Of a stretch of DNA of 64,000 bases, positions 1 to 24,418 are shown piece by piece. The number at the start of each line of letters is the position of its first letter. The stretch's first letter is position 1. Source of the DNA: Polyangiaceae bacterium. GTDB taxonomy: Bacteria > Myxococcota_A > Polyangia > Polyangiales > Polyangiaceae. Both the position numbers and the translations under genes were made by a program. The DNA lies in assembly GCA_009781005.1 (NCBI GenBank), contig WQYX01000015.1, positions 1 through 64,000 of the forward strand, read 5' to 3'. The notes beneath the pieces are model-generated. The model saw nothing but the letters and a program-made list of their open reading frames with translations. It was not told where the DNA came from and did no database searches.

Positions 1-59
1 TATCACCCTTGGCCGGAGAGACGCTTTGCGACCCGTTGACCCGAGGTGGGAGCCCGGTG

Positions 60-195
60 CGGGAAATCCGCTCGCCGGGTTCTGTCCGGGGGGCGGCCCG
101 AAAGGGCCGTCCCTACCGGGACCTACTCTACGTGCGCAGGCACCGCAGGGCCCAACGCAGGCATCGCGGTGCGCAGCAGGCTGGTAAACATGATT
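60..195. repeat. Palindromic repeat remnant
   Basis: This gene-free stretch starts with a hairpin of the form GGGGCGGCC-CGAAA-GGGCCGTCCC near 90-117. It is followed by about 70 nt that match the interior of the longer element at 8690-8888 (shared GTGCGCAGGCACCGCAG and GCAGCAGGCTGG). The end of the similarity abuts the TAA stop of the leftward gene at 196. It looks like a decayed composite of two repeat families. Nothing coding is seen from 1 to 195. Confidence 0.55.
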
Positions 196-19132: not shown

Positions 19133-20299
19133 TCACATGCTGAGCACGCGGATGACGGGACCCGCTTCGATCTCGATGCGATCTCCGGTGAAGAGCTCGC
19201 CGTCGAGAACGAATGCACCCTTCGGCATGGTCAAGGTTGCTCTCTCTGCGAGCGCGTCGACGTGCGTACCGATGAGAGGTTTGCCTGCGAGCACGCGTGG
19301 CAACTGCGGACCGAGCCGTGATGGGCCGAGCGAGGTTGCAACGATGTGAAAGCGATCGCGCTCCTCGCCTGCGCGATGGAGCAGGTGCAAGTGGAGACCG
19401 AGATCCCGCACGACGCTCGCACAGACGAGGCTCGTTCTGTCGAAAGGCGCACGCACTCCATCGACTTCGACCTGGCAGGGGACGGGCTCGAGGACGCGCC
19501 GCGCGAGCGCACCACCGAAGAGCGATCCGCCAAAGATGCGCATGACGAGGCTCGCCGCGCTCCTGTAGCCGCCCGATCCTTGGTTCGTATAGATCTCGAA
19601 GAAGCGCGCAACGAGCCCCGCGCCGACGATGAAGCCAACGTGTTCGACGCAGGCGGCGTCGCCGTTGTGATTTCGGACGAGGAGCGTTGGACGTGCCGTG
19701 ACTTCGGTGTGACCGGAGACGATCGCGGACAACAATGCATCCGTGTACTTTGCCGCTGCGCCGTCGCCGATCGATAGCAGGCCGCCACCCTCGTAGCCCC
19801 AGTTGCGCGCCACGGTGCTCACGGTGCCGCCGGGGACGAGGGCGATCTTCGGCCACGCGATTTGACCGCTTTCGATTTGATGCGATTTCACCGTTGGCGG
19901 CTGCGGTGCGGTCCTCAAAGCCGCAGCAGGCTGTTCACTTCGCTTCGCTCCGTTGCTCTCACTGTACTTCGTCCACTTCGTGGACTCCGTACAGTTCGAG
20001 TCCGGTCGCCTCTCATGCCGCCTCGAACTCGCGTCAACTTGAAAGCGGTCTTGTCTGTTCGCGAACGCGTTGCGCAGCGCGGTGACGCCCGCCATGTACG
20101 AACCGTCGCCGCCGGCAAGAACCACGGTGTCGCCGGGATCTGCAGCGATCTCGGCTGCTGCCGCTTCGAGGTCCGAAAGACTGCGCGTCTCGAGGAGGCG
20201 CATGCTGTTCGCTCGTGCCACGCGCAGGACGGCCTCGAAGATTGGACTGCCGTTCTGAAGCCGCCGTGCGCGCCGATTGACGATCGCGGTCACGCGCAT
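19133..20299 (-). CDS. Diacylglycerol/lipid kinase family protein carrying an in-frame palindromic insertion
   Basis: The protein is 388 aa from the ATG at 20299 (MRVTAIVNRRARR). The DAGK catalytic core is evident: GDTVVLAGGDGSYMAGVTAL (GGDG loop) and, in normal enzymes directly after, PKIALVPGGTVSTVARNWGY. C-terminal parts such as GDAACVEHVGFIVGAGLVARF and PKGAFVLDGELF also fit. Between ALRNAFANRQD and WPKIALVPGG there are about 62 low-complexity residues (containing KWTKYSESNGAKRSEQ) encoded by a 187-bp palindromic element. Without them the enzyme would have the usual length. The frame stays open through the insertion, so the protein may still be made; whether it is active is unknown. Confidence 0.82.
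   Translation of the reverse strand: MRVTAIVNRRARRLQNGSPIFEAVLRVARANSMRLLETRSLSDLEAAAAEIAADPGDTVVLAGGDGSYMAGVTALRNAFANRQDRFQVDASSRRHERRPDSNCTESTKWTKYSESNGAKRSEQPAAALRTAPQPPTVKSHQIESGQIAWPKIALVPGGTVSTVARNWGYEGGGLLSIGDGAAAKYTDALLSAIVSGHTEVTARPTLLVRNHNGDAACVEHVGFIVGAGLVARFFEIYTNQGSGGYRSAASLVMRIFGGSLFGGALARRVLEPVPCQVEVDGVRAPFDRTSLVCASVVRDLGLHLHLLHRAGEERDRFHIVATSLGPSRLGPQLPRVLAGKPLIGTHVDALAERATLTMPKGAFVLDGELFTGDRIEIEAGPVIRVLSM
19864..20050. repeat. Palindromic element inserted in frame in the lipid-kinase gene
   Basis: The terminal inverted repeats are GACCGCTTTCGATTTGA (19864-19880) and TCAACTTGAAAGCGGTC (20034-20050), matching at 15 of 17 positions. Inside is a hairpin TGTACTTCGTCCAC-TTC-GTGGACTCCGTACA and a core (19902-19936) that matches 24333-24367 at 30 of 35 positions. 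The element is translated on the minus strand as about 62 residues. Confidence 0.8.
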
Positions 20300-20363
20300 C
20301 ACAGCTCGCGTCGGGTAGCACACGATCGTTTTCAGCAGAGAGAAAACCGACTACTTCGTACGC

Positions 20364-23494: not shown

Positions 23495-24295
23495 ATGCAT
23501 TCCCCAAGGCTGCCCGCGCTCATCGGCGCGTCGCTCTTCGTTACGTTCTTCGGCGCGGGCTGCTTCGTGTGGCAACGCGACTTCGATGCAAAGACCGGGC
23601 AGCTCGAAAAGGAGCTCGACAAAGAGCGAGCCGATCTTGCGCAGGCTCGCGCGGATCTCGAGGCCACGCGCCAGCGGCTCGAAAATGCTCTTCGCGCGAA
23701 CGCGGATTCGAGCAGCGACGTCATGTCGTCCAAAGCGCGCCTGAATGATCTCGTTGGTCGCGTCGACGAAATTCAACACGGTGTCGACGAGCTCAAACGC
23801 GACGTTGGTGCAACGCGCACCGAGCTCTATGCGCGCATCGACGAAATCAAACACACACAAACCGCCGCTCCGCCGCCGGTCGCCATTCCGCAGGACAAAA
23901 CAACACATTTTACGCAACTCAGGGACGCATACAACAGACGCGACTTCGTAACCGTCCGCGCGCTCGGCCCCGAATACATCAACCGCTACCCAACCGACGA
24001 GCACGCGGACGAGGCGCTGTTCATCATGGGCGACTCCGATCTTGCCGATGGCCGTCCGAGCTCGTCGCTCGGCCACATGAATCGGCTGCTCAAGCTATTT
24101 CCGCGCTCGAAATTGCTCAATCGAACGCTCTTCGACATGGGCGAAGCGTATTTGATGTTGCACGATTGCCAGAACGCCAAGATTGCTTTCGAGGCCGTTG
24201 AAAAGCGATTTCCGAAAGAGAAATACGGCATCGACGCGCGGGCGCGCCTTGCACGCATCGCGCAGAATCCCCCCGGCCTTTGCGCCCCCCCATAG
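23495..24295 (+). CDS. CpoB/YbgF-like TPR lipoprotein
   Basis: The protein is 266 aa. The lipobox is TFFGAGC at about residue 23. A long coiled coil (about 30-120: LEKELDKERADLAQARADL and heptads to ARIDEIKH) is followed by a Pro-rich hinge and a TPR domain (LRDAYNRRDFVTVRALGPEYI; ADEALFIMGDSDLADG; NRTLFDMGEAYLMLHD). This order, coiled coil then TPR, is that of CpoB (YbgF), which links Tol-Pal action with peptidoglycan synthesis at division. No tol-pal genes are adjacent. The TAG stop is inside the left inverted repeat of the 24294-24418 element. Confidence 0.8.
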   Translation: MHSPRLPALIGASLFVTFFGAGCFVWQRDFDAKTGQLEKELDKERADLAQARADLEATRQRLENALRANADSSSDVMSSKARLNDLVGRVDEIQHGVDELKRDVGATRTELYARIDEIKHTQTAAPPPVAIPQDKTTHFTQLRDAYNRRDFVTVRALGPEYINRYPTDEHADEALFIMGDSDLADGRPSSSLGHMNRLLKLFPRSKLLNRTLFDMGEAYLMLHDCQNAKIAFEAVEKRFPKEKYGIDARARLARIAQNPPGLCAPP

Positions 24296-24418
24296 CCCGC
24301 TTCCGCTTTGGCGCGATCCCTTCGTTGGGGCCTGCGCTGCGGTCCTCAAAGCCCTACAAGGCTGTTCCGGTCCGCTGCTCGGCCCCGCCTCGGCCTCGCG
24401 CCAAATCGTTTGCGGGCT
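24294..24418. repeat. Palindromic element related to the lipid-kinase insertion
   Basis: The terminal inverted repeats, each 23 nt, are 24294-24316 (AGCCCGC...TTTGGCGCGA) and 24396-24418 (TCGCGCCAAA...GCGGGCT), matching at about 19 of 23 positions. The core at 24333-24367 matches the element at 19864-20050. The left end overlaps the stop codon of the CpoB-like gene. No coding capacity. Confidence 0.75.

Follow-up and report, generated by a model that had tools for sequence, protein, structure and literature searches.

A palindromic element carried in frame by a kinase gene in a Polyangiaceae genome, and the placement of its copies at stop codons

Introduction

Several families of palindromic repeats are known to lie within bacterial genes or directly beside them. 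The Rickettsia palindromic elements RPE-1, -4, and -6 are palindromes of ~100–150 bp that occur in frame in unrelated protein genes and are at least partly tolerated there (PMC2229807, PMC10969869). REP/BIME sequences, tagged GTAG or CGTC, are present in many copies as hairpins by gene 3′ ends; their termini give TAG stops, and some lie in ORFs, including those of DNA-repair genes (PMC3733652). ERIC, an enterobacterial repeat, is an imperfect palindrome of 127 bp that carries TA at either end; for it, in-frame intragenic copies and stop replacement are known (PMC2759123) and a target-site duplication is listed (PMC2229807). Coxiella QMITE2 is a MITE of 150–190 bp found mostly at gene 3′ ends, where it at times lengthens the C terminus (PMC5896051). 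In-frame palindromes in ORFs and REPs that supply TAG stops are already published; a literature search for elements that target stop codons found none.

Here, we describe a palindromic element from a Polyangiaceae genome, starting from a copy in a 64,000-nt stretch of contig WQYX01000015.1 (the whole stretch is referred to as the window). The element extends coding palindromes, best known from Rickettsia, to a gut myxobacterium with a genome smaller than those of its congeners, and empty sites in a relative allow comparison.

Results

A type A palindromic element of 188 bp lies in a kinase gene at positions 19864–20051 of the window (+ strand; the profile match runs to 20050/51) and is without counterpart in kinase orthologs. 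Inverted-repeat comparison placed its terminal arms, GACCGCTTTCGATTTGATGCGATTTC and GAACTCGCGTCAACTTGAAAGCGGTC, at 19864–19889 (+) and 20025–20050 (−), respectively; the arms are 26 nt long with 85% complementarity. An earlier note on this DNA had described a 187-bp element with 17-bp inverted ends, and its position was confirmed, but the ends are longer than it supposed. The inverted arms, together with the hairpin fold and genome-wide copies described below, bear out that this is a repeated palindromic element. The host gene (19133–20323, − strand) encodes a diacylglycerol-kinase-family protein of 396 aa including the insert, identified from its open frame, ortholog alignment, and a match to Pfam DAGK_cat (3e-07). 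As the note had read it, the frame is open across the whole element, which contributes about 62 added residues (approximately residues 92–154).

Kinase orthologs from at least nine relatives were aligned over the full protein, and they are without the insert residues; their presence in relatives was an outcome that the note had named as refuting its reading. At the insertion site, orthologs from the genus and family carry 0–12 residues, and the window kinase has ~62 more, running from FANRQ through the element-derived residues to IAWPKIAL. In the closest relative, G009, whose kinase is 76% identical to the window kinase (C-terminal part), the connector is FAKNGGAEGALPPIAL. Judged from these alignments, it was only once the lineage had diverged from that of G009 that the element entered the kinase gene. 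A PDB search with the single kinase sequence returned no matches; a search with the kinase profile matched DAGK structures, where the insertion site falls as a gap with the post-GGDG helix on one side and the strand preceding PGGT on the other. Because the length of the site differs among orthologs and the site coincides with a gap in the matches to DAGK structures, the insert lies in a length-tolerant connector. Two earlier suggestions, that the insertion splits the conserved core between GGDG and PGGT and that it is near the nucleotide site, were therefore not upheld. Going by the alpha/beta fold, the insert would point away from the active site. A fold of the kinase alone was unusable (pLDDT 39), its only hint being that residues 92–151 were without secondary structure.

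Kinase function is likely to be retained. There is no stop or frameshift in the 396 codons, and 53 of the 54 columns that are invariant in other genomes are kept, so the gene is not visibly decayed. The window kinase branch carries 15 derived changes compared with 4 in G009, and the window genome has a second DAGK-family gene (C91:16070–16819); relaxed constraint on the window kinase is therefore possible. The faster branch and the other DAGK-family gene, along with the location of the 62-residue insert in the N-terminal domain, could also be signs of a young pseudogene, in which the insertion left the enzyme inactive and decay has yet to reach the relic open frame. We consider this improbable given the uninterrupted codons and the retained columns, and all other coding copies found are in frame too, which decay would not produce. 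It is more doubtful by far that the insert is excised from RNA or protein in the manner of an intron or intein, an explanation to which we give almost no weight: the sole point in its favor is that the interrupted enzyme is intact apart from the insert, whereas no Rfam intron was found at the insertion site, the insert sequence is a simple hairpin, and the element family is mostly extragenic. The enzyme is probably still made, carrying a disordered loop of ~62 residues.

The same repeat type had also been reported from intergenic DNA at 24294–24418 (+), and this copy proved to be a shorter form with the same ends and a shorter interior (type B, consensus 127 bp). Upstream lies a gene for a YfiO/TPR-type lipoprotein (23495–24295, +; Pfam) whose stop codon is overlapped by the left end of this copy; the TAG stop at 24293–24295 abuts the element, and the ortholog ends at the same residue. 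From 24297 to 24367, this copy is 79% similar to the kinase-copy sequence. A scan for ends located a solitary right-end remnant of the same family at 684–709 (−).

Alignment separated two main forms with near-identical ends, GACCGCTTTC...GAAAGCGGTC: A is 193 bp including the flanking TA, and B is 127 bp. The consensus of each folds into a single hairpin, at −90 kcal/mol for A and −73 kcal/mol for B. Terminal tetranucleotides vary, with TTGA, TAGA, CTGA, and TAGC on the left and TAGA in 28 of 101 on the right. Read in three frames, the element end gives TAG ACC in one and a TGA within ~17 nt in the second; the third (xxx GAC CGC TTT) is open through many copies. Longer hairpins of 260–370 bp with the same GACCGCTTTC ends and other interiors were also present in the window genome (C1:76332, C3:32715, C4:20790, C7:3156, and C12:21515), which suggests that ends and interiors are modular or interchangeable. 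Sequence at the hairpin tip of the A and B elements (AAAGCC-N3-6-AGGCTGTTC) is hypervariable in the apical loop, and the rest of the element is strongly conserved; there were 33 different loops in 82 window-genome copies and only 8 in 37 copies of G009. Hairpin-tip cleavage followed by mutagenic repair is a possible source of this variability.

A search of the window genome (4.77 Mb, 199 contigs) with the kinase copy scored 43 matches, with E values as low as 1e-98; with the copy at 24294–24418 it scored 42. A profile search identified 104 places in 1.264 Mb of the window genome and 81 places in 1.194 Mb of G009, and the same profile gave no matches against reversed sequence. Extrapolation yields about 390 copies in the window genome and about 285 in G009, figures that are estimates because partial copies and some matches to a related family, R2, are counted. 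These samples, 26% and 28% of the two genomes, plus loci, are the basis of the statistics given here, and genes in them were called by a purpose-made codon-usage caller. Many contigs begin or finish inside an element copy (C2, C5, C16, C23, and C28 of the window genome; C5, C54, and C65 of G009); such repeats break assemblies, and the numbers of copies given here may therefore be underestimates.

Of the 12 genus members searched with the 127-bp query, only the window genome (G000) and G009 gave matches, and the element was not found with this query in the other ten. G009 is the metagenome-assembled genome Emb289P4bin44, a member of Polyangiaceae from a termite-gut study; Emb289 refers to the termite Embiratermes neotenicus (PMC7024585). 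A search of 108 family genomes turned up the interior, at ~80% and with different ends, TAACACCG, in one further genus (G107), where 3 of 12 element ends coincide with the stop of a gene. At 4.8 and 4.2 Mb, the window genome and G009, both rich in the element, are smaller than all ten element-free members of the genus (6.6–11.9 Mb); genome shrinkage may be linked to element spread.

Across the two samples, called genes contain seven of the 98 full internal copies, all in frame, and at least eight in-frame coding copies are known in total. Besides the diacylglycerol-kinase-family gene (19864–20051), the hosts encode a LigD-like phosphoesterase/primase-polymerase, with the element between its two domains (Pfam LigD), a LuxE-like protein (Pfam LuxE), a Y-polymerase-like protein (weak matches only), a metallophosphatase (Pfam), an acyl-CoA thioesterase (Pfam 4HBT), and, in G009, an Eco57I/N6-type methylase (Pfam); the eighth is a membrane protein (C2:112420, L023). 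When flanks were compared in six frames with the proteins of the other genome, three elements fell within a single ortholog, and all three were in frame. No out-of-frame coding copy was found in the two genome samples. Both element orientations occur among coding copies. At the termini, the frame in use is GAC CGC TTT, since one of the remaining frames runs into TAG at the edge and the other into TGA ~17 nt further inside. In a count of copies by location and frame over the two samples, of the kind that the earlier note had proposed genome-wide, the coding copies are all in frame; most copies, though, are extragenic, often on stop codons, a pattern that the note had missed.

A gene stop lies 0–2 nt from the element end in 40 of 91 full non-coding copies (22 of 41 in the window genome and 18 of 50 in G009). 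Random intergenic placement predicts 2% (p = 6e-27 for the window genome and 1e-18 for G009). The left end of the element makes the contact in 39 of 45 cases, the junctions seen are TGA|CCGC, TAG|ACCGC, TAA|CCGC, and TGA|GACCGC, and comparatively few gene ends lie 3–30 nt from an element. In a separate class of 10 copies, the gene reads on into the element as far as the TGA near position 17, which gives its protein a tail such as -PLSI; the ortholog ends a few residues earlier (cases 18, 21, 32, 96, and 103). Case 103 (G009 C8:22299 and its window-genome ortholog) has the element at the same gene end in both genomes. G009 reads CGA C there where the window genome has TGA, and it seems that a lost native stop in G009 was replaced by the internal TGA of the element.

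The coincidence with stop codons could in principle reflect truncation, with copies landing within genes and a built-in TAG or TGA ending the protein early, and element ends do hold stops in two of three frames. Protein ends, however, agree within one residue in 17 of the 24 stop-contact genes that have an ortholog in the other genome; stops are therefore mostly native, and we rejected truncation as the source of the coincidence, its probability being very low. A better candidate, though still an unlikely one, is that copies at stops were kept by selection as 3′-end modules, acting as terminators or mRNA stabilizers, rather than placed there by targeted insertion. Long hairpins directly 3′ of genes would suit such a role, and REPs near 3′ ends have been proposed to act on transcripts (PMC3733652). 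The 0–2 nt exactness, the few copies at 3–30 nt, and the left-end bias are hard to obtain from selection alone, and, bar a few shared gene ends, every site whose two flanks were compared proved empty or without a match in the relative. Between target choice and selection, the exact position and the orientation bias seen in these two genomes point toward target choice.

Discussion

We think it very probable that the kinase insert belongs to a MITE- or REP-like palindromic element, mobile but non-autonomous, that has proliferated in two members of a single Polyangiaceae genus, both with small genomes. Its movement would depend on an enzyme that comes from another source or that has since been lost. 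No Y1 (RAYT) transposase was found in G009, and the single Y1 gene of the window genome was rejected as a partner, being IS200-sized and without element ends nearby. In the sampled 2.5 Mb, the shorter spans between facing ends gave no clear case of a transposase-bearing copy. Matching flanks were not in excess over shuffled pairs, and so no target-site duplication was detected. An end that starts with GA would re-form the stop codon on which it lands (T|GA, TA|G), making such an insertion harmless. A copy landing within a gene would survive only if it is read in the open frame, has a frame-keeping length, and falls in a linker or loop; the insert in the kinase would be one such survivor.

A broader reading is that some enzyme inserts several hairpin families with different ends (GACCGC..., GAGCATG..., GAACGCG..., and, in another genus, a related interior with the TAACACCG ends) precisely at stop codons and in a single orientation; they would then make up a class of mobile DNA whose target is the stop codon. 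We put this forward tentatively, as somewhat less than an even prospect. Stop-codon placement would explain how a genome that is 88% coding holds hundreds of copies, and exact, oriented placement at native stops lets the loose remark that REPs "supply TAG" be restated as a hypothesis on target choice that can be tested.

The known systems were compared with these elements by their descriptions rather than by sequence match. Like RPEs, the elements are long palindromes (here, hairpins of 127 or 193 bp) inserted in frame in conserved protein genes. The host, however, is a member of Polyangiaceae, in a different phylum from Rickettsia, and coding copies are a minority, with the stop codon as the main site. 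The likeness to RPEs that the earlier note drew thus holds as a mode of action, given at least eight in-frame coding copies and none out of frame, but not as membership. High copy number, hairpins near gene 3′ ends, stop-supplying termini, and some copies in ORFs are shared with REP/BIME sequences; the units here are far longer, at 127–193 bp and some to 370 bp, carry neither GTAG nor CGTC as a constant tag where the stem begins, and form TGA and TAA junctions besides TAG, with stops that are mostly native by ortholog comparison, and no RAYT was found in the relative G009. ERIC is similar in its 127-bp length, TA ends, in-frame intragenic copies, and stop replacement but differs in its target-site duplication and unrelated hosts. 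QMITE2 is similar in MITE size and position at gene 3′ ends, whereas its 7–11 nt direct repeats are absent here. Terminal inverted repeats, high copy number, and the lack of a coding gene are all as in MITEs, and target-site duplication is a feature that differs. Because the defining features of REP/RAYT systems and of MITEs that form target-site duplications are absent, we describe the element as working like an RPE or REP rather than as being one.

The second hairpin family, R2, is ~110 bp long, with a common core and at least three end types (GAGCATGTTTACCAGC, GAACGCGTTTGCTAAC, and AGTTCCCATCCGGAAA); its loci include about 108–195 (minus) in the window, L082–L100, L216–L255, and loci in G009. 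The 90-nt profile matches to model positions 18–109 were considered as tRNAs, but ARAGORN found none, and they belong to R2. Within one R2 copy, the two arms are far more alike than are arms taken from different copies, and 18 of 30 copies begin immediately after a stop codon. An Rfam group II intron match (46.7 bits) at 48–122 (+) of the window, at the very start of the contig, adjoins an R2-family repeat.
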